Shown here in pieces: positions 99 through 20,083 of a stretch of DNA of 20,573 nt. Every line of letters begins with the position of its first letter. The stretch's first letter is position 1. The translations under genes and the position numbers were made by a program. This DNA is from a virus. The DNA lies in IMG/VR virus record IMGVR_UViG_3300042731_002243, positions 1 through 20,573 of that record. The stretch is one strand, 5' to 3'. Below the pieces are notes generated by a model. It had not been told where the DNA came from. It saw only the letters and a list, made by a program, of their open reading frames with translations, and made no database searches.

Positions 99-110
99 AT
101 ATTTATATAA
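99..110 (+). promoter_or_regulatory. Candidate late promoter motif ATATTTATATAA
   Basis: The 12-mer ATATTTATATAA sits 20 bases before the bS21 start codon, immediately after the stop of the upstream gene. The same 12-mer or its first nine bases recur before several other genes (3468, 10905, 11530, 13783, 13826). T4-like late promoters are single AT-rich boxes read by a gp55-type sigma factor, so this is a plausible equivalent. The strand is uncertain, because the reverse complement contains TATAAATA. Confidence 0.45.
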
Positions 111-130: not shown

Positions 131-403
131 ATGAGTAAACACCCAAAACTAGTCTCAGTTCAAGTAAGAAAAGGAGACATACAAAAAGCATTAAAGATAT
201 TTAAGAGAAGAGTAAGTGAATCTGGTCACTTATTTGAAGTACGAAAAAGACAAGAATATACGAAACCAACTACAATTCGTAGAAAACAAAAACAACAAGC
301 TATTAGAGAAAACCAAAGAAATGTTATCTTACAAAAGATAGATGATGGTAATACCCAACTTAGATTAGTTACAAAGAAAAGAAAGAAGGGAAATAGAAAA
401 TAG
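131..403 (+). CDS. rpsU: Phage-encoded ribosomal protein bS21 homologue
   Basis: This 90-residue, strongly basic protein matches small-subunit protein bS21. The N-terminus (VSVQVRKGDIQKALKIFKRR, residues 8-27) is the family's short strand and first helix. The central VRKRQEYTKPTTIRRK region (37-52) matches the bS21 signature, in which an aromatic residue and a KP pair precede a run of basic residues. In bacteria bS21 sits near the 3' end of 16S rRNA and assists mRNA binding at initiation. The protein is about 20 residues longer than the usual 70, through a Lys/Arg-rich tail. Phage-encoded bS21 genes are known from marine and giant phages. The likely role is to enter host ribosomes and favour phage messages. 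It lies alone between a candidate promoter and a terminator. AAGGAG (124-129) ends one base before the ATG, unusually close, and no other start is available. Confidence 0.85.
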   Translation: MSKHPKLVSVQVRKGDIQKALKIFKRRVSESGHLFEVRKRQEYTKPTTIRRKQKQQAIRENQRNVILQKIDDGNTQLRLVTKKRKKGNRK

Positions 404-1768: not shown

Positions 1769-1794
1769 TTTAATAATTTTAAGGAGAGAAAAAA

Positions 1795-3405
1795 ATGGCA
1801 AATTTTGATTTATCCAAACTGACAGAAGGAAAGAACCCACAATCAGTAATGCTCGAGGAAACAAGAGGATTAAAGAACAAATGGGAACAAACTGGACTTC
1901 TTGAAGGTTTGAAAGAAAGAGACCAACATCAGATGTCGGTTCTTTTAGAAAACCAAGCAAAACAATTGCTTGACGAAGCTAACTCTACTTCTACCGGAAC
2001 AGGTAATGAAGAGTGGAGTGGTGTAGCTTTACCATTGGTAAGACGTATCTTCGGTGAAATCAGTGCAAAGGAATTTGTTTCTGTACAACCGATGAACTTA
2101 CCTTCAGGTCTAATCTTTTATTTAGACTTTAAATACAACAACGGTCAATTTGGTGGCTCTAATTACTCTGGTTCTTCACTATTTGGTGGTGACGGAAGTG
2201 ATTTAGGTTCAACTAACGTAGCTAAAAACGGTCTTTATGGAGACGGTAGATTTGGTTACACACAACCTGACCAAAATAAATTCATCGCAAAAGCTGATGC
2301 AACTGTTGCAACTGCTTCTGTATATGATGATTTATACTACGACGGTAGATATACTGCATCTGTTGCTGCTGGAGACATCTTCAAAGTAACAATTGCAAAA
2401 TCTGATATCGATTCATCTGCTGATGATGACGCAATCAGAAGTTTTACTTTAACAACTAATTCTGGTTCATTTATTGACGAGAACTTAAGTGCATTCAACA
2501 GAGTATCTGGTGATAACTACGTTCTTTTCTTCTCTGGTTCAGAAAAAGTACAAGACGTTGAAGTAAACTTTTCTAAAGTAAACTCTGCTGGTGATAGAGG
2601 TGATTTTGAAGATAGAGATGCTATCTTAAACACTTCTGGTTCTGCAGGAACTGCGTTAGATATTCCAGAAATCGACCTAGAGTTGAAATCTGAGGCTATC
2701 GTTGCTAAGACTAGAAAACTAAAAGCAGTATGGACACCTGAGTTAGCTCAAGACCTTAATGCTTACCACAGTATTGATGCTGAAGCTGAATTAACTTCTA
2801 TGTTATCTGAGTATATCTCATTAGAGATTGACTTAGAAATCTTAGACTTGTTAAGAAGCAATGCTTTAACTACTGAGTACTGGTCTGTAAATATCGGTGA
2901 AGAATGGAATGGTTCAGCATGGAGTGCAGTAACAACTGGTGTTGCATACCAAAAGAACACATGGTTCCAGACTCTTGGTACTAAACTTAACAAAGTTTCT
3001 AACAAGATTCACCAATTAACACTTAGAGGTGGAGCTAACTTTATCGTTGCTTCTCCAGATGTATGTACTATCCTAGAATCTATCCCAGCTTTCTCTGTAA
3101 ACGCTGATAAAGATGCTGGACAGTTTGCAGCTGGTGTATCAACAGTTGGTTCTTTAGCTAACAGATATACAGTTTATAAGAATCCTTACCAAACTAACAA
3201 CGAAATCTTGTTAGGATTCAAAGGAAGTAACTTCTTAGAGACTGGAGCTGTTTACGCACCATACGTTCCACTTATCATGACTCCATTAGTATATGACCCA
3301 CAAAACTTCACTCCAAGAAGAGGTGTGATGACAAGATATGCTAAGAAGATGGTAAGACCTGAGTTCTATGGTAAAGTTTATATCAAAGATATACAAAACG
3401 TATAA
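1795..3405 (+). CDS. 23: Major capsid protein, gp23-like
   Basis: This 536-residue protein carries the hallmarks of T4 gp23. ALPLVRRIF followed by VSVQPMNLPSG (about 78-105) corresponds to the gp23 core start (VQPMNSPTG in T4). TRKLKAVWTPELAQDLNAYH (about 306-325) followed by DAEAEL matches the conserved central block, and ANFIVASPDV (about 414-424) and TPRRGVMTRYAKK near the end are also typical. It forms the hexamers of the capsid shell. By alignment with T4, the prohead protease probably cuts near LLDE/A (61/62), removing the N-terminal peptide. A strong AGGAG (1782-1786) lies eight bases before the ATG, as expected for the most abundant virion protein. A terminator follows at 3431. Confidence 0.93.
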   Translation: MANFDLSKLTEGKNPQSVMLEETRGLKNKWEQTGLLEGLKERDQHQMSVLLENQAKQLLDEANSTSTGTGNEEWSGVALPLVRRIFGEISAKEFVSVQPMNLPSGLIFYLDFKYNNGQFGGSNYSGSSLFGGDGSDLGSTNVAKNGLYGDGRFGYTQPDQNKFIAKADATVATASVYDDLYYDGRYTASVAAGDIFKVTIAKSDIDSSADDDAIRSFTLTTNSGSFIDENLSAFNRVSGDNYVLFFSGSEKVQDVEVNFSKVNSAGDRGDFEDRDAILNTSGSAGTALDIPEIDLELKSEAIVAKTRKLKAVWTPELAQDLNAYHSIDAEAELTSMLSEYISLEIDLEILDLLRSNALTTEYWSVNIGEEWNGSAWSAVTTGVAYQKNTWFQTLGTKLNKVSNKIHQLTLRGGANFIVASPDVCTILESIPAFSVNADKDAGQFAAGVSTVGSLANRYTVYKNPYQTNNEILLGFKGSNFLETGAVYAPYVPLIMTPLVYDPQNFTPRRGVMTRYAKKMVRPEFYGKVYIKDIQNV

Positions 3406-3477: not shown

Positions 3478-3505
3478 TTGGTAAAGTATATAAAGGAGAT
3501 ATCAT

Positions 3506-4657
3506 ATGAGTACACTAACATATTGGACTGGTTCAGTTGAAAACGATATATCAGGTTCAACTCCATTTGGTATTTATGATGCGGATACTACCTTCCAATC
3601 GGATGGCCCTAAGGTGGCTAATTGGTGTGCTAGAAGGTTAGGTTATCCAATCATAGATGTAGAACTAGTAGATTTAAATTTTTACGCTTGTTTTGAGGAG
3701 GCCGTATCTGAATATGGTGCCCAAATCAATCAATTTAACATTAGAAATAACTTGGGTTCAACATTAGGTAAACCGACTGGTTCAAACCTAACCCATCAAC
3801 AAGTTGCAGGTTCACCACTACCTCACACAATTAAATTATCAGAATCATATGGTACTTACGCCAACGTAGGTGGTAGAACAGATGTTAAAAAAGGATATGT
3901 AGAAACTAATCCTTACACACAATCGTATGATTTACAAACTTTATGGGGAGATGTTAGTGAAAGTAGTAAGAGATTAGATATAACAAAGGTATTTTACGAA
4001 GGTACACCATCAATTAATAGATTCTTCGACCCATATTCAGTTAGTGGTCAAGGAACACTTAACTTAGTTGATGAATTTGGATTCGGTTCATTCTCACCAG
4101 CAGCACAATTTATGTTGATGCCTATATTTGAGGATTTACAAAGATTCCAACATATTGAATTTAATGACCAGATAAGAAAATCTGCATTCACATTTAATAT
4201 TGTTAACAATAAATTACAAATATGGCCAAGACCAACTTCAACTTATAAACTTTGGTTTGAATATATTGTAAAAGATGATTATGATGATAACTCTACTGTT
4301 ATTACTCCAGGTGTAGTTGCAGATTATTCAAACATTGGATATGATTTTATGAACTACACACAAATAAATGATGTGGGTAAACAATGGATTAGAAAATATT
4401 CATTAGCATTGGCAAAAGAACTATTAGGAGCAATCAGAGAAAAGTATTCTACTGTTCCAATACCTGGTTCAGAGGTTTCTTTAGATGGTGCGGCACTTAG
4501 GGCAGAGGCACAAACAGAAAAAGATGCCCTTATAGAACAATTAAGAGAAAATTTACAAGAAGTTTCTAACAAAGTTAGGTATGAAACTGAAGCTGAAAAT
4601 GCTGAAAATCAACAAAAGTTGATGCAGAAAGTACCTATTAATATTTATATAGGATAA
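3506..4657 (+). CDS. 13: Neck protein, gp13-like
   Basis: The 383-residue protein matches in pattern the gp13-type neck proteins of divergent T4-like phages. The N-terminal part contains GPKVANWCARRLGYP (about 34-48) followed by a segment of aromatic and acidic residues. The C-terminal part contains LLGAIREKYSTVPIPGSEVS (about 310-329), a helix then a Pro/Gly turn, followed by a Glu/Lys-rich helix (about 335-375). In T4, gp13 and gp14 form the neck that closes the filled head and receives the tail. It is longer than T4 gp13 (about 309 residues). It is the first gene of a unit with the gp14-like and gp15-like genes, two bases before the next start. The gene name rests on remembered family pattern plus order. 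Confidence 0.65.
   Translation: MSTLTYWTGSVENDISGSTPFGIYDADTTFQSDGPKVANWCARRLGYPIIDVELVDLNFYACFEEAVSEYGAQINQFNIRNNLGSTLGKPTGSNLTHQQVAGSPLPHTIKLSESYGTYANVGGRTDVKKGYVETNPYTQSYDLQTLWGDVSESSKRLDITKVFYEGTPSINRFFDPYSVSGQGTLNLVDEFGFGSFSPAAQFMLMPIFEDLQRFQHIEFNDQIRKSAFTFNIVNNKLQIWPRPTSTYKLWFEYIVKDDYDDNSTVITPGVVADYSNIGYDFMNYTQINDVGKQWIRKYSLALAKELLGAIREKYSTVPIPGSEVSLDGAALRAEAQTEKDALIEQLRENLQEVSNKVRYETEAENAENQQKLMQKVPINIYIG
4641..4652 (+). promoter_or_regulatory. ATATTTATATAG motif inside the end of the gp13-like gene
   Basis: An 11 of 12 match to the upstream motif lies eight bases before the gp14-like start codon, but inside the preceding reading frame, where it encodes NIYIG. It could serve as an internal promoter or be a coincidence of coding sequence. 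A transcript starting about ten bases downstream would have almost no leader, which argues against it. Confidence 0.2.
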
Positions 4658-4659
4658 TT

Positions 4660-5115
4660 ATGGCTAGGTTTACAGGTCCAAATGATATAACTCTCTTCAA
4701 ACATTTTTCAGAGGAGTTAGTAGAAGATATTGTAACTACCACCATACAATTGTTTAAACTTTCAACATTTGAATCAAGAACAAATTTGTATGGGGAATCT
4801 TTAGGTAAGCAATATCATCAAGGAGTGGATGTAAACTGTCTAATCGAAAGACAAGAATCAGAAGTAAACTACGAAGGATTCGGATTCGATAGAAGTCAAC
4901 AAGTAGAATATAGATTTAACAGACACACATTGGAAGAAAAGGCATTATATCCAGAAATTGGTGATGTTATTTTCCATAACAATGGATATTTTGAGATTGA
5001 TAACGTAAGAGAGGACTTTATGTTAGCTGGTAGAACAGAATCTAAGTTCTCAATCATTTGTTCAACGTTTATGATGAGACGTTCTCAACTTAATATAGAA
5101 GAAAGGGCAGTATAA
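4660..5115 (+). CDS. 14: Neck / head-tail connector protein, gp14-like
   Basis: The 151-residue protein contains TNLYGESLGKQYHQGVDVNC (about 41-60), then an acidic FGFDRSQ segment, YPEIGDVIFHNNGYFEIDNV (about 105-124), and a terminal RRSQLNIEER. This set of blocks is typical of the short neck or connector proteins found beside gp13 in divergent T4-like phages. T4 gp14 is longer (about 256 residues), so this would be a compact version. Its expected role is joining the portal vertex to the tail top. AGGA (4651-4654) precedes the start, and its stop codon TAA shares one base with the next ATG (TAATG), suggesting translational coupling. Confidence 0.6.
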   Translation: MARFTGPNDITLFKHFSEELVEDIVTTTIQLFKLSTFESRTNLYGESLGKQYHQGVDVNCLIERQESEVNYEGFGFDRSQQVEYRFNRHTLEEKALYPEIGDVIFHNNGYFEIDNVREDFMLAGRTESKFSIICSTFMMRRSQLNIEERAV

Positions 5116-6236
5116 TGAAAGAACCATTCAAAGGGTCAAGTAAAAAAAATAGAGCTGAAGAAATTTCACTTCCTAAAAGTGAAAAGTTTTCAATAACTCT
5201 ATATGATGTAGATTTGGCAATCATGGAATACATGAGAGATGTTGTTTTGCCCGAACTTGATGAGAATGGAACTAAAATTAAAGTACCAGTCCTATATGGT
5301 AATCCAGAAAGATGGAAATCTGCAAGAAAAGACGGTGTTTTAAGAGATGTTCGAGGAAGATTACAGTTACCACTAGTAATGTACAAAAGAAACTCGTTAG
5401 AAAGAGATGCTGCATCTAATTCCATCAATAGATATCTATCATATCCAACATATCAAAAATATAACAACAAACAAAAGTACGATAAGTTCAGTTTAATGAA
5501 TGGTGTACAACCAAACACACAAAATTATAACATTACTGTACCAGATTATGTTAGTATTACATATGAAGTAATGATTTGGACATCATTTACAGAACATATG
5601 AATAAAGTAGTAGAACAATTCCAATATGCAACTGATGATTATTGGGGAAATAAAGATAAATTTAAATTTAGAGTAAGAATTGATTCATTTGATAATCAAC
5701 AAGAAGTAGGACAAGGTTCAGAACGTATTATCAGAACCACATTTAATATGGTTGCAAATGCTTATCTATTACCAGAGAAATTTAATAAAAAACCAACAAA
5801 TATATTATCATTTGGTCCAAAGAAAGTTATAATTGGACAAGAAACTGATTTGACTGGTGGTAAAAACAAGTATTCTGAACAAAGTTTACTCAATGAATAT
5901 TCAGATACTTTAGAATATATGGCTTTAAGAGGTGCTACATCTGGTTCATTAGTAGATGGAGATACATTTAAGATTACAAACGTAGAAGTACCATCAGTAC
6001 CACCATCGTTATCTAGTTCATTTACAAAAGACCAAAAATTCAATGTATATATTAATGGTTTAAAAATTCCACACACAAAATGGGATACAGAAGTAAGTGG
6101 AAGTGATTTACTATTTAACTTTACAAGTGGTTCACTAGATGGTGAAGGTAATTTAGTAGCAACATCAACAGATTTAGGTTATGAATTAGATAATAATGAT
6201 GAATTTGGAGTGACTGGAAAGTTTATTGAACTATGA
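5115..6236 (+). CDS. 15: Tail completion / sheath stabiliser protein, gp15-like, with an extra C-terminal module
   Basis: Residues 1 to about 265 resemble tail-sheath stabilisers of the gp15 type: a Val-Pro-x-x-Tyr-Gly segment (KVPVLYGNPERWKS, about 56-69), then RLQLPLVMYKR (about 82-92), then YEVMIWTSFTEHMNKVVEQF (about 154-173) and a conserved YWGN. In T4, gp15 caps the top of the sheath and joins tail to neck. Order 13-14-15 supports this. The protein is 373 residues against about 272 in T4. The excess is a C-terminal module (about 278-373) with FNVYINGLKI (309-318) and SGSDLLFNF (328-336). This module recurs as the body of each of the next two genes. The ATG overlaps the previous stop by one base, and the stop overlaps the next start by four. 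Confidence 0.6.
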   Translation: MKEPFKGSSKKNRAEEISLPKSEKFSITLYDVDLAIMEYMRDVVLPELDENGTKIKVPVLYGNPERWKSARKDGVLRDVRGRLQLPLVMYKRNSLERDAASNSINRYLSYPTYQKYNNKQKYDKFSLMNGVQPNTQNYNITVPDYVSITYEVMIWTSFTEHMNKVVEQFQYATDDYWGNKDKFKFRVRIDSFDNQQEVGQGSERIIRTTFNMVANAYLLPEKFNKKPTNILSFGPKKVIIGQETDLTGGKNKYSEQSLLNEYSDTLEYMALRGATSGSLVDGDTFKITNVEVPSVPPSLSSSFTKDQKFNVYINGLKIPHTKWDTEVSGSDLLFNFTSGSLDGEGNLVATSTDLGYELDNNDEFGVTGKFIEL

Positions 6237-6921: not shown

Positions 6922-9900
6922 ATGGCAACATTAATTTCAAGTAAACAGATACAGGGTGTAGTAACTGCTTCAGTAGTTGAAGGAGAATTTTTAGTTTCTG
7001 GCTCATTAGTAGTAACTGGTAGTGGTGTTGTTACTCAAGATTTAACTTCATCTGGTACTATAACTGCAACTGAATTTGTAGGTAGTGGTACTAATCTTAC
7101 GTTTAATGGTACTGGTATTGTATCTGGTTCATCACAACTTACAACAGAGTTTGATTCAAGATATTTAAATGCAAATGCAGATGGTGTAATTAGTGGTTCA
7201 TCACAATTAACATCTTCTTTTGATTCAAGATACATAAATACAAATACAGATAGTGTAGTTAGTGGTTCATCACAAATAAGTTTGAGTGGTGTACAAGGTG
7301 ATACAGATGATGTATCCGAAGGTTCATCAAATCTTTATTATACAGATGCAAGAGTTAAGACAAAATTAACTGCTGAGGGTGTAATTAGTGGAAGTTCACA
7401 AGTTACCATATCCCAAACTGGTGGATATACTGCCTTTAGTTCATCAATTGCTGCATCAGTATCTTCATCAACTTTACCTGAAGGAGTAGTTAGTGGTTCA
7501 TCACAAATTGATTATGATGATATAAGTGATAAACCTGCATTTATCGGAGGCACAAATGTAACTGTAACTTCTGGTAGTGGTGGTATTACAATTAACTCTA
7601 CTGGTGGTGGAGGCGGTGGTGGTTCAACAGATATTTCATATCTGAACCAATATACATCTTCAACCGATGCAAGATTTGGTATTATTGAATCCACAACTGC
7701 ATCTTTAGACCAAAGATTAGACCAAATAGAATCAAACACCGGTTCGTATGGTTCAGGTGGAGATATAAGTTCACTAAATACATTTACATCTTCAATACAA
7801 ACTGAAGTAGATGCAATATCTGCTGCAACATCTTCATATTTAACAGAAACACCCGCGGGAACAATTAGTGGTTCACAACAAATTACTGATTTAGGATTCA
7901 TTAGTTCATCCCATACAGATATAACATCACTTAATTCATATACATCTTCAACAGATACAAGATTAAGTGGTATAGATTCATTTACTTCATCTATTCAAAC
8001 AGAAGTTGATGCAATAAGTGCAACTACTTCATCTTATTTGACACAATTACCAAGTGGGGTAGTTAGTGGTAGTGTTTTAAGAACATTAGATGGTACTGAT
8101 GTTGTAAGTGGTTCAGTATTAAGAACATTAGATAGTACAGATGTAATAAGTGGTTCAGCACAAATAACTGCGTTTGGATTCGTATCAGAAAGTTCATCAG
8201 TCCCTGCAGGAACTATTAGTGGTTCAGCACAAATCACTGCTTTAGGATTTGTAAGTAGTAGTGGAGATAGTACACCTGCTGGAACAATTAGTGGTTCAAA
8301 ACAAATTACTGATTTAGGATTTATTTCTTCATCAGATTCAACAACGTCATTAAACTCATATACATCTTCAACAGATGTAAGATTAACAAATATAGAATCT
8401 ACAACCTCTTCATTAGACCAGAGGTTAGACCAAATAGAATCAAATACTGGTTCTTATAGTTCTACAACTGATATAACATCTTTAAATTCATTTACAGCAT
8501 CTATTGATACTACAATAAAAAGTAAATTAAATACAGAAAATGTTGTAAGTGGTTCTTTATCATCTTCAATTGCATTTGATGGAAATAGAACAGTATCTAA
8601 TACTGATTTACCAAGTGGTGTTTATAACAATAACTTTGGAACGAGTGGTTCAATACAAGATTTTATATCATCAGTATTTTTCCCAAACACGGCACCAACA
8701 ATAAACTCTACACAATTTACAATAGCAGAGTTTTTAACTAGTGGTTCAACTGTGGGTACATTATCAGCAACTGATGCCGAAGGACAGTCAATAACATTTA
8801 CTACACAATCTGCATATACTGATGATAAAGTAAAAGTTTCAACTGGTGGAGTTATAACTTTAACAGAAACTGCAACATCATCATCATATAATACGACATT
8901 AAGTGGTAGTATTCATGCACACGAAGTAGAAGTAACTGCTACAGATACATTTAATAGTTCAACAAATAAAACAATACACATTATAGTTACTCCAAACGAG
9001 GCCCCTAAATTTAGAGAAGGTTCAACTGGTGGTAATGTAATTACAAACGTAACGGCTAGTTTAAATGAGAATAGTTCAGATGGTACTTTAGTAAAAAGAG
9101 TATTTTTTACTGATGGAGAAAGTGATACAATTACAATTGATTCATCTTCAATATCACCTGCAAACCATTTTTCAATAACAAAATATTCAACTTACGTTGA
9201 TATAACACAAAATACAGGTTCATTAGATTATGAAACCTATCCAACATATACATTTAGTATATCTGCATCTGATGAACACTATCAGGCAGGACAAGATAAT
9301 GATGCAATAGTTACTTTACCAATATCAGTAAGTGTTGCAGATAATGCACACCCAACAATCAATAACCAAACTCTTTCATCTATAAATGAAAATAGTTCAA
9401 ATGGTGCAACAGTTGGTTCTATATCAGCAACTGATGTAGATTCAGATACTATAACATTTAGTAATTTTACATTGTATAAACTAGAATTGGATAATTCAAA
9501 TGTTTCAAGTGGTTCATATGGCGGAACATCACAGGCATCAGACCCACATGAAAATCCATTCCAAATGACTTCGGCCGGGCTTGTAACAAGAAAGACCGGA
9601 GTACATATAAATTCTGATTTGATAAACGAATATCAATATACAGTAATCGTAAAAGATAATTTTAACACTGCATCAAATGAGGCAATTGTTACCATACCAA
9701 TTGATGATGATACTCCTGCTAGTATTTCAACGAATGGAACGTTTAGAATTGTTGAATCGGCAGTAAGTGGTGCATTAATTAGAACAAATGCAAATGGATT
9801 TAGTGGTACACAAGCAGATTTAAGTTCAAATCAAAGTGGTACTTTCACAAACTCTTCAAATCCTGCTATTGCAGTTAATAGTTCAAATGGTAACTTATCA

Positions 9901-10905
9901 TTGGCAGTTGATTTAAGTGGTTCAGCAACTCAGAGTGGAGACACAATAACATCTAACGTAACCTTTACAAACACATTTGGTACAACAACTGTACAATCAG
10001 TAACAGCAAACGTAGTTGGTAACAGTGCACCAACAATATCATTTACAAATCAAACTGCAAAATTTGAAACAGATTTGGCATTAGATGGTGTAACTATGGT
10101 AAGTATGAGTGTAAGTGATACAGAAAGTGATACACCATTTTCTGCTTCACTTAGTGGTAGTAATCTAAGTTTAGTTTATTCTAACTCTGATTCAAGTTCA
10201 ATTGGTATTCATGCAAGTGGTAATTTAGCTGCTGGAACTTACACATATACTGTTAAAGTTACTGATTCATATGGAGAATCAACAACATATAGTGATAGAA
10301 GTTTTACAGTTTCAACATCAGCTGATTATGGTAGAGTGTTTGTTTATGATGTAGGATTTAACAACGCAACTTATAACACCGCAGTTGGTATTGATTCAGA
10401 AGATAGTTCAACACCACCGGTTGCAACACCACATTCAAATATTGGATTCTTAGATAAAATAAAAGATGATGATGTAATTGGAGATTCAACATTTACATAT
10501 TCTTATGGTGGAACACAAACTGCAACAAAATTAGGTGAAGCAAGTGGTTCTAATTTACATGATGTATTAAGAACAATGGGAAGTAGTGGTGTAATGAGTA
10601 GAAATTCAGCAAAACACTTTGTGGTTTTATTCCCAAGTGGTTCAGATATGGGAGGCATTCCAACAACTACAACAGATTCATATGGTGGTTCAACTGCAGG
10701 AGAGTATGTGTTAGAGGTAGGAACAGATGGAACTACAATTGATGGTTCTAATACATTAGAGGCATCTGAAATTAATCAAATAACATTAGCAACAGCTCAT
10801 GTAGGTTATACAACCTGGTTTATGGTAGGTGCTACAAACCAAGTTGCAAGTTCAACAAACTTTAACTTAGGATTAAACCCATCATCAGGTTCTGGAGGAG
10901 AATAA
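6922..10905 (+). CDS. Large tail fibre protein with SGSSQ linkers and cadherin-like domains
   Basis: This 1327-residue protein is built from repeats. Residues about 1-225 contain a series of V(V/I)SGSSQ units separated by beta-rich segments. A polyglycine run (about 228-234) follows, then a zone (about 240-580) with short coiled coils of the type LDQRLDQIESNTGS and more SGS units (SGSAQ, SGSKQ, SGSVL). Residues about 590-1130 hold three or four cadherin-like domains, seen from repeated NENSS, ATDxDxD and APTI signatures separated by about 100 residues. The final domain (about 1134-1327) is distinct, Gly/Ser/Thr-rich, and may be the tip. There is no S74 chaperone. No signal peptide is evident. 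Expected role: a trimeric fibre contacting the host surface. Cadherin-like domains suggest carbohydrate or calcium binding, which is inference. Confidence 0.85.
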   Translation: MATLISSKQIQGVVTASVVEGEFLVSGSLVVTGSGVVTQDLTSSGTITATEFVGSGTNLTFNGTGIVSGSSQLTTEFDSRYLNANADGVISGSSQLTSSFDSRYINTNTDSVVSGSSQISLSGVQGDTDDVSEGSSNLYYTDARVKTKLTAEGVISGSSQVTISQTGGYTAFSSSIAASVSSSTLPEGVVSGSSQIDYDDISDKPAFIGGTNVTVTSGSGGITINSTGGGGGGGSTDISYLNQYTSSTDARFGIIESTTASLDQRLDQIESNTGSYGSGGDISSLNTFTSSIQTEVDAISAATSSYLTETPAGTISGSQQITDLGFISSSHTDITSLNSYTSSTDTRLSGIDSFTSSIQTEVDAISATTSSYLTQLPSGVVSGSVLRTLDGTDVVSGSVLRTLDSTDVISGSAQITAFGFVSESSSVPAGTISGSAQITALGFVSSSGDSTPAGTISGSKQITDLGFISSSDSTTSLNSYTSSTDVRLTNIESTTSSLDQRLDQIESNTGSYSSTTDITSLNSFTASIDTTIKSKLNTENVVSGSLSSSIAFDGNRTVSNTDLPSGVYNNNFGTSGSIQDFISSVFFPNTAPTINSTQFTIAEFLTSGSTVGTLSATDAEGQSITFTTQSAYTDDKVKVSTGGVITLTETATSSSYNTTLSGSIHAHEVEVTATDTFNSSTNKTIHIIVTPNEAPKFREGSTGGNVITNVTASLNENSSDGTLVKRVFFTDGESDTITIDSSSISPANHFSITKYSTYVDITQNTGSLDYETYPTYTFSISASDEHYQAGQDNDAIVTLPISVSVADNAHPTINNQTLSSINENSSNGATVGSISATDVDSDTITFSNFTLYKLELDNSNVSSGSYGGTSQASDPHENPFQMTSAGLVTRKTGVHINSDLINEYQYTVIVKDNFNTASNEAIVTIPIDDDTPASISTNGTFRIVESAVSGALIRTNANGFSGTQADLSSNQSGTFTNSSNPAIAVNSSNGNLSLAVDLSGSATQSGDTITSNVTFTNTFGTTTVQSVTANVVGNSAPTISFTNQTAKFETDLALDGVTMVSMSVSDTESDTPFSASLSGSNLSLVYSNSDSSSIGIHASGNLAAGTYTYTVKVTDSYGESTTYSDRSFTVSTSADYGRVFVYDVGFNNATYNTAVGIDSEDSSTPPVATPHSNIGFLDKIKDDDVIGDSTFTYSYGGTQTATKLGEASGSNLHDVLRTMGSSGVMSRNSAKHFVVLFPSGSDMGGIPTTTTDSYGGSTAGEYVLEVGTDGTTIDGSNTLEASEINQITLATAHVGYTTWFMVGATNQVASSTNFNLGLNPSSGSGGE

Positions 10906-10916
10906 TATTTATATAA
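10905..10916 (+). promoter_or_regulatory. Candidate late promoter motif ATATTTATATAA
   Basis: An exact copy of the 12-mer starts on the last base of the preceding stop codon and ends 15 bases before the next start codon (10932). It fills most of the short gap between two fibre genes. Confidence 0.45.
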
Positions 10917-10931
10917 AAGAGAAAAAAAGAT

Positions 10932-11522
10932 ATGCCATCGTTTAGTTCAAAAGTACAATTATCATCAACTGCACAGAGTAACAATATAGTACTCGCTGAT
11001 GTAGATAGGATAAAAGGAGCATTTAAAACTTATGCATCTGCTTCAACAATGAACGCAACTTCTGTAAATTATTTTTCAGATGGTCAAATTGTATATGTAG
11101 AAGATAGTGGCTCTCTTTTCAAAGCAACAGTTACTCCAGCAAATCCTGGTCAAGGTCAATTTGATGATTTAGTAACATTTGCACCATTCTCATTTCATAG
11201 TGGTTCTTTTGTTAGTGCATCATTTGATGGAACACATACATTAACATTATTTGGAGAAAATCTAAGTGGTTCTACTCAAATATCAATGTCTGTTGATTTA
11301 TCTGCATTGACAGGTTCTGGTGGAGGCGGTGGCGGTAGTGGTGATATTACTGCTGTTTTTGCGGGAGATGGATTGACTGGTGGAGCTTCAAGTGGTAACG
11401 CTACTTTAGAAGTAGATGCAGGTGATGGTATAACTTTAACTGGTGGTGTCTCTGTTGATACAGGTTCAGTTCACTTTACAGAAGGTGTACAAAAAACGAA
11501 TTTAGACGGTGGTGAAGTTTAA
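10932..11522 (+). CDS. Short fibre-like protein
   Basis: The 196-residue protein has an N-terminal domain (about 1-85) with DGQIVYVEDSGSLFKATV (about 50-67), a pattern met at the start of other phage fibre proteins. A beta segment, a polyglycine linker (about 130-137) and a SGDITAVFAGDGLTGG module (about 138-153) follow. It ends soon after SVHFTEGVQ. The last part resembles an internal segment of the 1641-residue fibre (GDITAV...HFTQGV at 16198-16305), so the protein looks like a fibre lacking its distal part. It may be a short connector fibre or the remnant of a longer gene. No S74 domain is present. The ribosome site is poor. Confidence 0.75.
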   Translation: MPSFSSKVQLSSTAQSNNIVLADVDRIKGAFKTYASASTMNATSVNYFSDGQIVYVEDSGSLFKATVTPANPGQGQFDDLVTFAPFSFHSGSFVSASFDGTHTLTLFGENLSGSTQISMSVDLSALTGSGGGGGGSGDITAVFAGDGLTGGASSGNATLEVDAGDGITLTGGVSVDTGSVHFTEGVQKTNLDGGEV

Positions 11523-11529
11523 CCAACGT

Positions 11530-11541
11530 ATATTTATAAAA
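11530..11541 (+). promoter_or_regulatory. Candidate late promoter motif ATATTTATAAAA
   Basis: The nine-base core with a modified tail lies eight bases after the preceding stop codon and 86 bases before the next start. A palindrome with a T run follows immediately, which is awkward for a + strand promoter. Confidence 0.35.
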
Positions 11542-11545
11542 GAAT

Positions 11546-11566
11546 AATTCTATATAGAATTTTTTT
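11546..11566 (+). terminator. Perfect 16-base palindrome with T run, possible weak terminator
   Basis: AATTCTATATAGAATT (11546-11561) is a perfect palindrome that can fold as a 6-bp stem with a four-base loop, and the T run continues to 11566. The stem is AT-rich, so termination would be weak. It may instead be a processing site or a protein-binding site. Confidence 0.4.
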
Positions 11567-11627
11567 AATCGGAGTAAATACTCAAAAATGGTTACATATT
11601 AATTAAACAAAAAGGAAACTAAAAATT

Positions 11628-13712
11628 ATGGCTCAAACTATAAAACACAGAAGAGGTAAATTAGAGCGTATTGCAAGTATAACTCCGATTAGTGGTGAAT
11701 TAATCATAGCTTCGGGTTCTGACTTATCAGTACACCAATCTGGTTTACTGTTTGTTGGAGTTGATGGAAATGTATTAACACCTTCAAACAAAATTTTAAC
11801 AGGTTCGGCTACCGCACCCGATGTAACTGGTGGTTCATTCGACCATTCGGTTGACGGTATTCCTTACTATGAAACCGATGCTAAGAAATTAACAATTCTT
11901 GGTAAAGGTGGTAACACAGATGTAACATTGGCACATGGACAAATTGATTTCAATGGTTCAGGTATCGTATCATCATCTTCACAAGTATCTGAATTAGCTG
12001 GTATTAACGATTCAACTTTAACTATTACAGCTGGTGATGGTTTAAAAACAGGCGGTACATTCACAAGTAACCAAAGTGGAGACAGTTCAGTAACATTAGA
12101 TATTGATGTATCTGATTTTGCTGGTGCAGGTTTAGAAGATGATGGTTCAGAAAATTTAAGAATTGCTGCAGGTGGTGTAACCAATGCGATGTTAGATGGT
12201 TCAATCGCTAATGCAAAATTAAGTAATTCTGCTATTACAATTGCTGGTACATCTACTTCATTAGGTGGTTCAATCACATTAGCTACTATTACAAATGGTA
12301 GTGGAATTCAATCGGGTTCTATTACAAATGCTGATTTGGCTGGTTCAATCGCTGATAGTAAATTAAACACTATTTCAACTGCAAATAAAGTATCTTTATC
12401 GGCTCTTGATATTGATGGTGCGAGTGCTCTAGGTGGTGCTCCTGCTGGTGCTGATTTGATTCCTATTGATGATGGTGCGGGTGGTACTAACAAATCTATG
12501 ACCGTATCAAACTTACAGACATACATGCAATCAAACCTTTCATTCTCAAGTGGAGATATTGAAGGTGTAACTGCAGGAAGTGGTATTACTGGTGGTGGTA
12601 CATCAGGTACTGTTGTAGTAGGTGTTGATTCTGGTTCACTTGCTGGTAGTGGTTTAGCTGCTCCTGCGGGTGGTGCAATTAACGTAAATGTTGATGATTC
12701 TTCAATTGAAATTGACTCTGATACATTACAAGTTAAGGCAAGTGGTATTACAAATGCCATGTTAAATGGTTCAATTGCAAATGGAAAACTTGCAAACTCG
12801 GCTATTACAATTGCTGGTACATCTACTTCACTAGGTGGTTCAATTACTTTAGCAACAATCACAAATGGTAGTGGAATCCAATCAGGTTCTATTACAAATG
12901 ATGATTTAGCTGGTTCGATTTCGAATGATAAACTTGCTGGTTCAATCGCAAATGGTAAATTAGCTAACTCGGCAATTACAATTGCTGGTACATCTACTTC
13001 ATTAGGTGGTTCAATCACAGCCGATACAATTGCTGGACAGATTTCAGCTGGAACAATTACTAACGCACAATTAGATGGTTCAATCGCAAATTCAAAACTT
13101 GCAAATGATGGAATCACAATCGGTTCTACTGATACTTCATTAGGTGATACAATCACTGCAATTGTTGGATTAACAGATTTAGATTTAGCTGCTGGAGATA
13201 GAACAATCTTTGATACAGTTGGTGCAAATACACTTACAATTGGTGCTTCTTCAACTGATATCGTACTACCTGGTAACTTAACAGTTAGTGGTACTACAAC
13301 ATATATCGATACTACAAACGTAGCAATTGGAGATAACATTCTTGAATTAAATGCTGCTGGTAGTAACGATGGTGGTATTTATGTAAGAGATGCTGAAGGT
13401 ACTTCAAATTCTGGTTCATTACTATGGAATACAGGTGATGACAGATGGATTGGTGGAGTTAAAGGTTCAGAAAAAATCTTAACTTTCTACAATGCAGACC
13501 CAACAACTAATAACGTACAGAAGGTAAATTCTTCTAACCTATTAGTAGATTCAGCAATTTCTGATAATGGTACTGCAGTAACAATTAGTTCTAACTTAAT
13601 TATAAGTGGATTAACTGCTTCTCAATTAGTTGTAACTAATGGTTCAAAACAATTAGTATCTTCTACTGATATTTCATCTCTAACACTAACGTTAGATGGT
13701 GGAACGTTCTAA
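11628..13712 (+). CDS. Tail fibre protein with repeated ITIAGTSTSLGGSIT modules
   Basis: The 694-residue protein starts MAQTIKHRRGK, the short beta domain also seen at the start of two other fibres here and resembling the N-terminus of the major tropism determinant; it probably attaches to the tail. Most of the body (about 180-510) consists of repeats with GSIANxKL, AITIAGTSTSLGGSIT and GSGIQSGSITN elements, suggesting an elongated beta-rich shaft. Near residues 550-625 is a module with NLTVSGTTTYIDTTNVAIGD followed by LLWNTGDDRWIGG, common in phage fibres and related to two modules of the next gene. It lacks an S74 chaperone and ends LTLTLDGGTF. AAAGGA (11611-11616) lies upstream of the start. 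A strong terminator follows, so this fibre may be expressed separately. Confidence 0.85.
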   Translation: MAQTIKHRRGKLERIASITPISGELIIASGSDLSVHQSGLLFVGVDGNVLTPSNKILTGSATAPDVTGGSFDHSVDGIPYYETDAKKLTILGKGGNTDVTLAHGQIDFNGSGIVSSSSQVSELAGINDSTLTITAGDGLKTGGTFTSNQSGDSSVTLDIDVSDFAGAGLEDDGSENLRIAAGGVTNAMLDGSIANAKLSNSAITIAGTSTSLGGSITLATITNGSGIQSGSITNADLAGSIADSKLNTISTANKVSLSALDIDGASALGGAPAGADLIPIDDGAGGTNKSMTVSNLQTYMQSNLSFSSGDIEGVTAGSGITGGGTSGTVVVGVDSGSLAGSGLAAPAGGAINVNVDDSSIEIDSDTLQVKASGITNAMLNGSIANGKLANSAITIAGTSTSLGGSITLATITNGSGIQSGSITNDDLAGSISNDKLAGSIANGKLANSAITIAGTSTSLGGSITADTIAGQISAGTITNAQLDGSIANSKLANDGITIGSTDTSLGDTITAIVGLTDLDLAAGDRTIFDTVGANTLTIGASSTDIVLPGNLTVSGTTTYIDTTNVAIGDNILELNAAGSNDGGIYVRDAEGTSNSGSLLWNTGDDRWIGGVKGSEKILTFYNADPTTNNVQKVNSSNLLVDSAISDNGTAVTISSNLIISGLTASQLVVTNGSKQLVSSTDISSLTLTLDGGTF
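12180..12362 (+). repeat. Fibre repeat unit, copy 1
   Basis: This 183-base segment matches 12750-12932 at a fixed offset of 570 bases (190 codons) with no gaps that I could see. Differences are mostly at third codon positions. It encodes TNAML through the GSIANxKL, AGTSTSLGGSIT and SGSITN elements. Confidence 0.8.
12750..12932 (+). repeat. Fibre repeat unit, copy 2
   Basis: Second copy of the unit at 12180-12362. A third, partial copy begins 171 bases after the GSIAN part of this one. Confidence 0.8.
12939..13018 (+). repeat. Fibre repeat unit, partial copy 3
   Basis: This segment repeats the GSIANGKLANSAITIAGTS part of copy 2 and the following LGGSIT, then diverges. A more worn fourth start (GSIANSKLANDGITIGSTDT) follows at 13077. 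Confidence 0.75.
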
Positions 13713-13737
13713 ACGTAGGCACACATTTTATATAAAG

Positions 13738-13766
13738 AATCCTCACTTCGGTGGGGATTTTTTTTT
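13738..13766 (+). terminator. Strong terminator with a C(TTCG)G tetraloop
   Basis: AATCCTCAC (13738-13746) pairs with GTGGGGATT (13751-13759) with one G-T wobble, around the very stable TTCG tetraloop closed by C-G. A T run to 13766 follows. It separates the 694-residue fibre gene from the next one. Confidence 0.92.
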
Positions 13767-13782
13767 ATTATCAAATAAAATC

Positions 13783-13794
13783 ATATTTATATAA
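13783..13794 (+). promoter_or_regulatory. Candidate late promoter motif ATATTTATATAA, first of a pair
   Basis: An exact copy of the 12-mer 16 bases after the terminator and 60 bases before the next start codon. A second exact copy lies 43 bases downstream. Confidence 0.45.
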
Positions 13795-13825
13795 GTGAAG
13801 AATTACCTAATTATTGAGGTTTGGA

Positions 13826-13837
13826 ATATTTATATAA
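13826..13837 (+). promoter_or_regulatory. Candidate late promoter motif ATATTTATATAA, second of a pair
   Basis: An exact copy of the 12-mer 17 bases before the start codon of the largest fibre gene, similar to the spacings at 99 (20 bases) and 10905 (15 bases). AGGA (13843-13846) lies between motif and start. Confidence 0.5.
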
Positions 13838-13854
13838 AATTTAGGATGTAATTA

Positions 13855-16800
13855 ATGGCAGCTATTATACAATTAAGGAGAGGTTCATCCCCTTCATCGC
13901 TTTCTTATGGTGAAATATATGTAAACGATGACTCGGCATCATTGGTACTGAGATTATCAGGTTCGGGTGATATCGTAACATTAACAAAATTAGAACAAAA
14001 AAATCATGGTAACCTATGGATTGATGGTGATATAACAGCATCATCTATATCAGCAAGTGGTGATGTAAGAATCGGTGGCCAATTATTTTTAGGAGATGAG
14101 GCAACTGATGATATAGTTGTACAAGGTTCATTAAGTTCATCTTTAATACCAGAATCAAATGCTGCACATGATTTAGGTTCTTCTACAAAAAATTGGAAAG
14201 ACCTTTATGTTGGAACAATATATGCAACAAGTACAGTATTATCTGGTCAATCAAACCTATCAAGTTCAGCACAAATTACCGCTTTTGGATTCATAAGTGG
14301 TTCAGATTTAGATTCTTTAAATTCATATACATCCTCAACTGATATTAGATTAACAAATCTACAATCAACTACATCATCGTTTGATGTAAGAATTACACAA
14401 TTAGAAACCGATACAGGTTCACAAGACCAAAGATTAGATAGATTAGAATTAGAAACTGGTTCTCTAAACACTACTAATACTGCACAAAATACTAGATTAA
14501 CAACATTAGAAACTAAAACTGGTTCTTTAGATAGTGATATTACAACTATTAATGGTAGATTAGGTAATGTTGAAACTACTACTGCATCATTTGATAGTAG
14601 ATTGGATAATTTAGAATCAACATCAGGTTCATCTAACACCTTCCAGGCAGATGCTACAATTCAATTAAACAATATAGAATCAACTACTTCCTCTTTTGAT
14701 GGAAGATTAGATAATATAGAATCTACTACTTCATCTTTTGATGGTAGATTAGATAACTTAGAATCTACTACTGCATCTATTGATGTTAGAATAAATGGTA
14801 TTGATACTACAACCGCTTCTTTTGATGGTAGATTAGATATTTTAGAAGCAAAAAGTACAACAATTGGAACTGTAACATCTTCACTTGATTCAAGATTAGA
14901 TGTTCAAGAGGCAAAAAGTACAACAATTGGAACTATAACATCTTCTTTTGATGGAAGATTAGATAATATAGAATCTACTACCTCATCTTTAGATAGTAGA
15001 GTAGATGCACTAGAAACTAGTACAGCATCCTCAGACATAAGTGTAGATTCATTAAATACATTTACATCATCATTTAACACTGCAATTACATTAAATAGTG
15101 ATGATGTAACAGTATTAGGAAACTTAACAGTACAAGGTACACAAACACAACTTAATACATCAACTCTTAATATAGAGGATAAAAATTTACTTATAGCAAG
15201 TGGAGCAGCAGATTCATCAGCTGCAAATGGAGCAGGTATTACAATTGATGGTGCAGATAAAACATTAACATGGGACCACTCTAATACTAACTTTGTATTT
15301 GATGCAAGAGTAAGTTCATCAGTTGGATTTGCTGGAGATGGTAGTGGATTGACGGGTGTAACTGCAAATGCAGTTGCATTTAATAATATAACAAGTAAAC
15401 CAACATTAATTAGTGGTTCATCTCAAATAGACCACGATGCCACAGACAACTATGTTGCAGGTGAACACTTCTTACAATCAGCTATTACAACTGTGGGTAC
15501 TATTGGTACTGGTGTTTGGCAAGGTACTGTTATCGACAAACAATATTTAGATGATGAAGTTTTAAATACTTCATTAAATTCATATACTGCAAGTAATGAT
15601 ACTGCAGCAACTGTACAAAATAATAGATTATCAAGTTTAGAATCAACAACTTCTTCTTTAGATGGAAGATTAGATATTCAAGAGGCAAAAAGTACAACAA
15701 TTGCAGGTGTAACATCTTCACTTGATTCAAGATTAGATAATGTTGAAACTACTACATCTTCACTTGATTCAAGATTAGATAATATTGAAACTACTACATC
15801 TTCTTTAGACCAGAGATTAGATAGATTACAATTAGAAACTGCTTCTTTAAATACATCTGTAACTACAATCAATGGTAGATTAGATAATGTAGAATTAACT
15901 ACTTCCTCTTTTGATGGTAGATTAGATAACTTACAGGCAACAACTGAATCACTTGACCAAAGGTTAGATAGAATAGAATTATACACATCATCTAACGATA
16001 CAAGTTCATTCAATGCAAGATTTACAAATATAGAATCTACAACTTCTTCATTCGATAGTAGATTAGACCAATTAGAAACAAATACTGGTTCTCTTGGAAC
16101 TGCAGCATTCTTCAATGTTACGAGTTCTATATTTGGTGACTCAACAGTAGTACCAACTGCAGCTGCAGTAAACGATGCAATTGTTTCAGCGGGTGGTGGT
16201 GATATTACCGCCGTTGGTGCTGGATTAGGTTTAAGTGGTGGTGGAGTTTCGGGTGATATTACTCTTAACTTAAATACTGGCTCAACTCACTTTACACAAG
16301 GTGTAACTGCAATTGCAGGTGGAGCCGTTGATTTAACATCATTAAACTCATATACTTCATCAAATGATATTAAGATAACAAACATTCATTCTACAACTGC
16401 TTCATTCGATAGTAGATTAGATAACTTAGAAGGTGCAAGTGGTTCATACTTAACTGCTCACCCAAATATAAGTGCTGGTTCAAACATATCACAAGATAAT
16501 TCAGATGGTACTGTATTACAAGATTTAACAATCACATTAGATTCTAATGGACATGTAACTACTGCAACTTCTGCTACTGTAAATTTAGATGGAAGATATT
16601 ATACTGAAACAGAATCGGATACTTTATTTACAAAAAAAGGTGGACAAGGTGTAATTAGTGGTTCTTCACAAGTAAACGCTGATTCAATTACAAACTTTGA
16701 TGCAAATGTAGATACGAGATTAGATGCTAAAACAGTAATTAGTGGTTCTTCACAAGTAGTATTAGATAATGCAGATAAGACAGGATTTACTGCTGATGAT

Positions 16801-18780: not shown

Positions 18781-18793
18781 AATTTTAGTTTAA

Positions 18794-20083
18794 ATGGCAC
18801 AAACAATAAAATTAAAACGTTCTTCCACAGCTGGGAAAGTACCTGGAACTGGTAATCTTGCCTTAGGTGAACTTGCCATCAATACCTATGATGGTAGAAT
18901 ATTCTTCAAAAAGAACGATGGCTCAGATGCAGTAGAACATATTGTAACTACTGATTCTATAACAACTGGTTCAATATCACTTACTAGTAAAGTAACAGCA
19001 GCAACACTTACACTTAGTGGATTATCTGCACAAAACTCAGAAGCAACTTCATTAATGATTAATGGTAGTGGTGTTGTTGGAACTAGAGAACTTGGTTCAA
19101 ATGCATTCAACTCAACATCATTTTTAACCGAACACCCAAATATAAGTGCTGGTTCAAATATATCACAAAATAATTCAAATGGTACTGTTATACAAGATTT
19201 AACAATCACATTAGATTCTAATGGACACGTTACCACCGCAACTGCAGGTACAGTAAATTTAGATGGAAGATATTATACTGAAACAGAATCAGATACTTTA
19301 TACACAAAAAAATTAGGACAAGGTGTAATTAGTGGTTCATCACAAATTGACCACGACCAAACTACAAACTTCAACACAAATGAACACTTTACTCAGGCTA
19401 ACATCACAACTGTTGGTACTATTGGTACTGGTGTTTGGCAAGGTACTGCAATTGCATCGGCTTACTTAGATTCAGATACTGCACACCTAAGTGGAACACA
19501 AACATTTAGTGGAGCAAAAACATTTAGTAGTGATTTAACAATATCAAATGCTGCACCAAAAATATATCTTACTGACACCAATAACAATGATGATTTTATA
19601 ATTGCCAATACAAATGGTGTTTTTCAAATTCAAGATGATGTTGGTGCTAGATTCCAAGTACAAAGTAGTGGTGTTGTAGAAGTAAAAACATCTACACAAT
19701 CAACTTCTAAAACAACAGGTGGATTAGTCGTTGATGGTGGTGTTGGTATCGCTAAAACACTTAATGTTGGTGAAGATGTTGTTGCATATGCTTCTTCAGA
19801 CGAGAGATATAAAGATAATGTTACACCAATTGAAAATCCAAATGATAAAATTAAACAAATCGGTGGATATACGTTTGATTGGAATGATAAACACGAAGTA
19901 TTCAAAGGTCAACACGATGTTGGTGTAATTGCACAAGAAATAGAAAAAGTATTACCAGAGATTGTAGAAACAAGAGAAAGTGGATATAAAGCGGTAAAAT
20001 ACGAAAAGATAGTAGCTCTACTAATAGAATCTAATAAAGAACTTCTTAAAAGAGTAGAAGAGTTAGAATCAAAAATCAAATAA
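18794..20083 (+). CDS. Tail fibre protein with S74 chaperone
   Basis: The 429-residue protein starts with MAQTIKLKRSSTAGKVPGTG and LALGELAINTYDGRIFFKKN (about 22-41), the clearest version in the window of the tropism-determinant-like N-terminal domain. A middle part (about 110-225) is shared with the giant fibre: HPNISAGSNISQ, YYTETESDTL, SGSSQIDHDQTTNFN and GTIGTGVWQGT. A beta segment (about 235-325) follows. The end (about 330-429) is a peptidase S74 chaperone with SDERYK giving Ser335/Lys340; self-cleavage would release about 95 residues. It lies 13 bases after the giant fibre gene with no clear ribosome site. It may be a shorter fibre, or an alternative adhesin sharing its shaft with the larger one. 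Confidence 0.87.
   Translation: MAQTIKLKRSSTAGKVPGTGNLALGELAINTYDGRIFFKKNDGSDAVEHIVTTDSITTGSISLTSKVTAATLTLSGLSAQNSEATSLMINGSGVVGTRELGSNAFNSTSFLTEHPNISAGSNISQNNSNGTVIQDLTITLDSNGHVTTATAGTVNLDGRYYTETESDTLYTKKLGQGVISGSSQIDHDQTTNFNTNEHFTQANITTVGTIGTGVWQGTAIASAYLDSDTAHLSGTQTFSGAKTFSSDLTISNAAPKIYLTDTNNNDDFIIANTNGVFQIQDDVGARFQVQSSGVVEVKTSTQSTSKTTGGLVVDGGVGIAKTLNVGEDVVAYASSDERYKDNVTPIENPNDKIKQIGGYTFDWNDKHEVFKGQHDVGVIAQEIEKVLPEIVETRESGYKAVKYEKIVALLIESNKELLKRVEELESKIK
19123..19343 (+). repeat. HPNISAGSNISQ module, copy in the last fibre gene
   Basis: This is the counterpart of 16444-16677. The next module (19326-19468, DHDQTTNF and GVWQGT) also follows in the same order, although in the giant fibre the two are separated by an extra segment of about 190 bases. 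Confidence 0.8.

Follow-up and report, generated by a model that had tools for sequence, protein, structure and literature searches.

A ribosomal protein bS21 gene among the head genes of a phage fragment and its possible role in Shine–Dalgarno-led late translation

The bS21 gene and its place in the head module

The window analysed here is a 20.6-kb fragment of a marine virus (IMG/VR record IMGVR_UViG_3300042731_002243, 20,573 nucleotides) that holds late genes only, and near its beginning, at positions 131–403 of the + strand, lies an ATG-started gene for a phage homologue of ribosomal protein bS21, 90 amino acids long. It is preceded by the C-terminal end of an upstream gene, read from the sequence as 30 codons and a stop (3–95, + strand; stop codon at 93–95) and truncated by the window start, and a terminator-like hairpin with a T run comes after it (437–459, + strand), in agreement with the terminator proposed in a first-pass annotation of this DNA; terminator-like sites in the first 2 kb of the window number 4, versus 0.8 expected. 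Next on the + strand come an acidic scaffold (gp22-like) candidate of 400 amino acids (566–1768), assigned by its position and by homologues at the same place in Flavobacterium phage immuto and in relatives, the gp23 major capsid protein, MCP (1795–3405; PF07068, E-value 3.6e-77), and a gp13-like head-tail adaptor of the neck (3506–4657; phrog_211, E-value 2e-13). The siting of bS21 between the upstream gene tail and the scaffold candidate, inside a head module, had been described in the same way by that annotation and holds. In the relatives, TerL, portal and protease lie 5′ of bS21 and scaffold, MCP and gp13 lie 3′, on a single strand throughout, and the order of portal/protease block, bS21 and scaffold/gp23 is kept in about 20 of them.

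The identity of the protein was confirmed by a profile search, in which residues 9–61 matched positions 1–54 of the 55-position PF01165 (Ribosomal_S21) profile with an E-value of 1.9e-13 and 50.4 bits, against a cut-off of 27. Additionally, the open reading frame (ORF) at 131–403 matched the PHROG family "ribosomal protein S21" (E-value 1e-8), and bS21 chains in the PDB were reached with E-values of 2e-7 from the single sequence and 2e-12 from a profile of relatives. The AlphaFold model contains helices at residues 17–31, 33–40 and 48–71, with a predicted local distance difference test score (pLDDT) of 80 but a predicted template-modelling score (pTM) of 0.37, and a Foldseek search with this model gave weak matches to mitoribosomal bS21, at E-values of 0.25 or worse. 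The extra basic tail claimed at first reading was also recovered, as a C-terminal extension of about residues 66–90 that is kept in close relatives. This extension reaches about 45 Lys/Asn-rich residues at loci L013, L014, L016, L018, L019 and others, and is missing from the 72-residue bS21 of L021 and L022, two relatives poor in Shine–Dalgarno (SD) sequences. The nearest bacterial bS21 genes in a genome scan were two loci in Bacilli metagenome-assembled genomes only (38–48% identity), which was uninformative as to host or origin. Taken by themselves, both the gene and its location are of a known, ordinary type.

The leader and a putative late-promoter element

The leader of the gene (117–130, + strand) reads TTAAAAAAAGGAGA and places a GGAG 1 nucleotide from the ATG. 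GGAGA stands directly 5′ of the ATG in 36 of 48 loci of the clade, and among 779 genes of five relatives the GGAGA-ATG arrangement was found at bS21 genes only. The GGAG was rejected as a normal SD, its spacing being 1 nucleotide in these 36 loci, and as an SD for a downstream start, there being no alternative start codon in range. The autoregulated rpsU gene of Bacteroidota carries an extended, normally spaced SD (McNutt 2023), which differs from the AAAGGAG leader with its spacing of 1 found here. The leader also has A at −3 and −6, which suit SD-less initiation (PMC6847099). It is possibly a self-regulatory element, and its layout suggests that it may act as a brake once anti-Shine–Dalgarno sequences (ASDs) are free.

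The first-pass annotation had credited the gene with its own promoter, a claim that survives in one form and fails in another. As a sigma-70 site it was rejected, since 5 such sites were found versus 5.0 expected, which is chance level. As a phage-type element it stands: the putative late-promoter element TATTTATA lies at 100–107 (+ strand), and in the window this motif occurs on the + strand at 100, 3469, 4642, 10906, 11531, 13784, 13827 and 18603 and nowhere on the − strand. In relatives, where it is enriched strand-specifically 5′ of genes, the sense:antisense counts were 21:0, 18:1, 10:0 and 11:1, and it was found 5′ of 15 of 75 labelled virion genes versus 6 of 79 other labelled genes. 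Found on the sense strand only in the window, G004 and G006, it is likely a phage late promoter. The motif is also the reverse complement of T4's TATAAATA.

The residue at the Tyr54 site

In Flavobacterium johnsoniae the 3′ tail of 16S rRNA is held by bS21, bS18 and bS6, so that SDs are ignored, and with bS21 mutated (Y54A) or lacking its C-terminus a message with a strong SD is translated 3–5 fold better (PMC9976891). In an alignment based on a profile of 21 relatives, residues 15–59 of the phage protein correspond to residues 10–54 of the F. johnsoniae chain 7JIL, which reads ...QKAAY54IQ. The ASD-sequestering bS21 of Bacteroidia has an aromatic residue at this site, and the phage protein has Arg59, invariant across the 21 aligned homologues. 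Since E. coli bS21 carries Lys there, the alignment places the phage clade in the ordinary bacterial state at site 54 and not in that of Bacteroidia. Chlorobia bS21 is likewise without Tyr54 (McNutt 2023, PMC9976891). Close relatives L112–L114 (L114 being genome G016) have Tyr again at the site, and with SDs in 3 of 17–19 they depart from the pattern seen across phages.

Distribution of Shine–Dalgarno sequences

As the first-pass annotation had reported, the capsid and gp13-like genes carry SDs: both are AAGGAG, with GGAG at 1783–1786 (+ strand, spacing 8 nucleotides) and at 3495–3498 (+ strand, spacing 7 nucleotides), and the scaffold gene is without SD. SD use by gene class was followed in five long clade members (G003–G006 and G010) with genes labelled by homology and called as the longest ATG ORFs, a caveat for all SD counts. 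Summed over these genomes, SDs precede 48 of 75 virion genes versus 6 of 79 replication or metabolic genes, and the split is significant in each genome singly (13/18 versus 0/8, 8/12 versus 0/11, 15/22 versus 4/29, 7/15 versus 2/25 and 5/8 versus 0/6; p from 0.03 to 0.0001). In the virion genes the motif peaks 7–9 nucleotides before the start, resembling the spacing peaks of T4 and pelagiphage Mosig, and in the other genes it is nearly absent. The words most enriched in late leaders are the SD core 4-mers AGGA, GGAG and AAGG. Along the genome maps the SD-led genes form blocks (runs-test z of −3.4, −3.2, −2.7 and −1.7, versus −0.2 for T4 and 0.6 for Mosig), and no SD split by gene class was found in T4 or Mosig.

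Other phages gave further reference points. In Bacteroidota phages without known bS21, SDs were found in 0–2% of genes for immuto, 8% for phi38:1 (background 15%) and 0% for phiST; in P-SSM2, a T4-like phage of Prochlorococcus, SD use is low throughout (1 of 16 in the virion-rich stretch). Among genes neighbouring bS21, SDs precede 315 of 482 (background 24) where Arg and the GGAGA-ATG leader occur together (36 loci), versus 7 of 167 (background 10) at 21 loci with Tyr or His at site 54. Likewise, where Arg-clade members have bS21 among the head genes, all 38 MCP leaders checked carry an SD; in the Tyr54 group none does.

The bS21 gene of the G011/G012 lineage is sited away from the head module, and SDs on late genes are scarcer there but still favour virion genes (6/14 versus 0/23 and 6/14 versus 1/24). 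In the MCP tree these two genomes are sisters of the window subclade within the SD-rich group, and therefore the relocation and the lower number of SDs look like a secondary change. The relocated genes are at 227495–227653 in G011, 211157–211315 in G012 and 19642–19794 in G016; in G012 and G016 a giant fibre-like gene follows directly 3′.

Promoters of relatives and the probable host

TerL, portal, sheath and MCP are nearest to those of Flavobacterium phage immuto, "Microcystis" phage Mel-JY01 and an uncultured 484-kb phage. TTTGG...TTCGTATATTTG is abundant in the 5′ regions of these phages' long relatives in the clade, and the strict form TTTG-N17-22-TAnnTTTG was observed 19 times versus 0.6 expected in G011, 13 versus 0.4 in G012, 5 versus 0.4 in G010 and 2 versus 0.1 in G004. 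The motif became clear from gapped-word counts and the longer relatives, a looser count in G004 giving little. No sigma-70 excess was found in these four genomes, and the strict motif was not found in Mosig. The F. johnsoniae −7 consensus, TAHHTTTG (PMC6847099), is the same as the −7 part of this motif, so the early promoters of the long relatives match the Bacteroidota consensus. The host is probably a member of the Bacteroidota, for the window itself by indirect evidence, and with such promoters in relatives and a Flavobacterium phage as nearest isolate, the host is therefore probably SD-blind.

A possible switch in ribosome selectivity

The first-pass annotation, made without knowledge of the host, had suggested that a phage bS21 could shift host ribosomes toward SD-led late messages. 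The unexpected support for this suggestion, namely Arg at the Tyr54 site, a probable Bacteroidota host and the restriction of SDs to virion genes in the long relatives, is correlational. We give about an even chance to the proposal that the phage protein takes the place of host bS21, releases the ASD and thereby gives these messages an advantage. Under this proposal, a T4-like phage infecting Bacteroidota would produce bS21 late, alongside its virion proteins. Unaltered host ribosomes would be SD-blind, their 16S 3′ tail being held by host bS21 through Tyr54 together with bS18 and bS6; phage bS21, with Arg59 and its basic tail, would displace host bS21 on 30S subunits, and the exchange would release the tail. 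The SD-led late messages for capsid, protease, neck, sheath and baseplate would then out-initiate SD-less host and early phage messages. The A-rich bS21 leader, with A at −3 and −6, might permit the first translation of bS21 by unaltered ribosomes, and its GGAG, too near the start codon, might damp bS21 synthesis once ASDs are free. A more tentative extension, to which we give somewhat less than an even chance, is that phage bS21 makes SD-blind Bacteroidota ribosomes SD-reading, so that one ribosome type reads the SD-less early phage genes and a second then reads the SD-led late ones; the bS21 leader would be the brake, and the whole would be the equivalent, in translation, of sigma-factor switching.

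Several observations weigh against the replacement proposal. In F. johnsoniae a response to the loss of bS21 is reported only for SDs of exceptional strength (below −13 kcal/mol; McNutt 2023, PMC9976891), and by estimate none of 84 late leaders falls under −10 kcal/mol, these being ordinary AAGGAG-like SDs. The other holders of the 16S tail, bS18 and bS6, remain host proteins, and neither a phage-encoded bS18 nor IF3 as helpers was found in the eight long relatives searched. E. coli ribosomes lost most of their activity when a viral bS21 was put into them (PMC6375957). Moreover, the host assignment is indirect, through relatives' promoters and the nearest isolate; when the ASD tail was permuted, 43 of 300 versions told late leaders from early ones no worse than the true sequence, a weak discrimination; and related phages are non-independent samples. 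Finally, relatives L102–L106, L109, L021 and L022 are of the Arg type and yet SD-poor, which breaks a strict rule that Arg means SD-rich.

These SD-poor phages would suit an explanation in which phage bS21 merely sustains translation, extra copies completing or repairing 30S subunits in late infection, when many ribosomes are required, with message choice unchanged. bS21 is loosely bound to the ribosome and exchangeable (PMC6375957), and Tyr54-type phage bS21 occurs in SD-less phages, so that a bS21 gene need not accompany SD use. However, this explanation accounts neither for the difference in SD use between virion genes and the rest in a host that is probably SD-blind, nor for the loss of Tyr54, nor for the unique bS21 leader, and we consider it unlikely. 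A similarly low probability is given to a host whose ribosomes recognise SDs anyway, such as a lineage related to Bacteroidota that lacks locking of the Tyr54 type, in which phage bS21 would be ordinary and SDs would mark highly expressed late genes. The Chlorobia case and the indirect host assignment speak for it, and Arg or Lys at site 54 is ordinary in other bacteria; however, in T4 and Mosig, phages of SD-reading hosts, SDs occur whatever the gene class, whereas here early and replication genes stand at background, the promoters fit the F. johnsoniae consensus, and L112–L114 have Tyr at the site, as if their hosts lock the ASD.

The GGAG-like motifs of late leaders might also not be SDs, serving instead as purine-rich unstructured leaders, or as targets of a nuclease or an RNA-binding regulator, in combination with the TATTTATA promoter. 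A-rich, unstructured leaders are favoured in Bacteroidota initiation (PMC6847099), the GGAG of bS21 itself is badly placed for an SD, and the permuted tails point the same way. Against this, the top enriched words are those of the SD core and the 7–9 nucleotide spacing peak is close to the peaks of T4 and Mosig, which leaves this explanation the least probable, and improbable in itself.

If the replacement proposal is true, the ribosome would partly determine when phage genes are expressed, and phage bS21 genes would be a tool for switching on SD reading in Bacteroidota. Message selection by ribosomes of altered composition, and the reason for bS21 in many aquatic phages, have long been debated, and this clade offers a concrete testable case: a phage paralogue without Tyr54, late genes as mostly the sole SD carriers and a host that probably ignores SDs.

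Other features of the window

A gp15-like tail sheath stabiliser (5115–6236, + strand) was assigned by a weak match (PF16724, E-value 0.0014, under the curated cut-off). Positions 6922–20083 hold a series of very long Ser/Gly-rich fibre-like ORFs of up to 1641 amino acids, the final one (18794–20083) matching Peptidase_S74, the intramolecular chaperone of endosialidase. Rfam and tRNA searches of the window gave no matches.

Comparison with known systems

Many aquatic phages carry bS21, and one such protein enters E. coli ribosomes (PMC6375957). The bS21 of pelagiphage HTVC008M (Mizuno 2019, PMC6375957), a protein that enters ribosomes, is like the present one a phage bS21 of an aquatic myovirus, and ribosome entry would be common to both; its host is alphaproteobacterial, unlike the probable Bacteroidota host of the window clade. 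Mosig, the sequenced relative used in this analysis, spreads SDs over gene classes, and its bS21 is not between protease and MCP.

Phage immuto (MW353176) shares a T4-like head module in the same order, with TerL 55% and MCP 48% identical, but has no annotated bS21 in it, and its SDs are at or below background. Mel-JY01 (PP395634) carries a co-directional bS21 gene between protease and MCP and has Bacteroidota-type promoters; its bS21, however, is 41% identical with Lys at the 54 site, and it shows no SD split by gene class (3/7 versus 5/14). The deposited host of Mel-JY01 (L025, L062) is Microcystis elabens, its Bacteroidota-type promoters number 4 versus 0.2 expected, and its virion proteins are 48–55% identical to those of the window clade; judging from its sequence, the phage may in reality infect a Bacteroidota member of the culture.

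The host bS21 of F. johnsoniae (PMC9976891, 7JIL) shares with the phage protein its family, its ribosomal site and an SD-related element in the gene's leader. It differs in having Tyr54 and no long basic tail, in place of Arg59 and a basic tail. Its leader carries an extended SD, whereas the phage leader has GGAG 1 nucleotide from the ATG, and thus any feedback would be opposite in logic.

The closest precedent is that of freshwater Bacteroidetes huge phages, in which bS21 lies among head genes, beside TerL, portal, protease and MCP as in the synteny of the relatives here, and for which late expression and selection of phage messages were proposed (Chen 2022, PMC9723584). Their hosts are Bacteroidota, the same group that is probable here from promoters and nearest isolate. 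However, their bS21 is on the opposite strand to the structural genes, whereas in the window and its relatives it is on the same strand, and it has an aromatic residue at 54 instead of Arg59 and a basic tail. Loci L063–L083 are of this Tyr/His54 type, with the almost SD-less neighbours counted above (7/167), in contrast to the SD-rich late genes and GGAGA-ATG leader of the window clade. No link between phage bS21 and SD use was found in open-access papers. The presence of phage bS21 in the head module and the idea of late phage-message preference are already published (Chen 2022, PMC9723584); new is the combination of Arg at the Tyr54 site, SDs mainly on virion genes, an SD-blind host type and an odd leader of the gene's own, which makes the question of ribosome re-tooling by phage bS21 directly testable.
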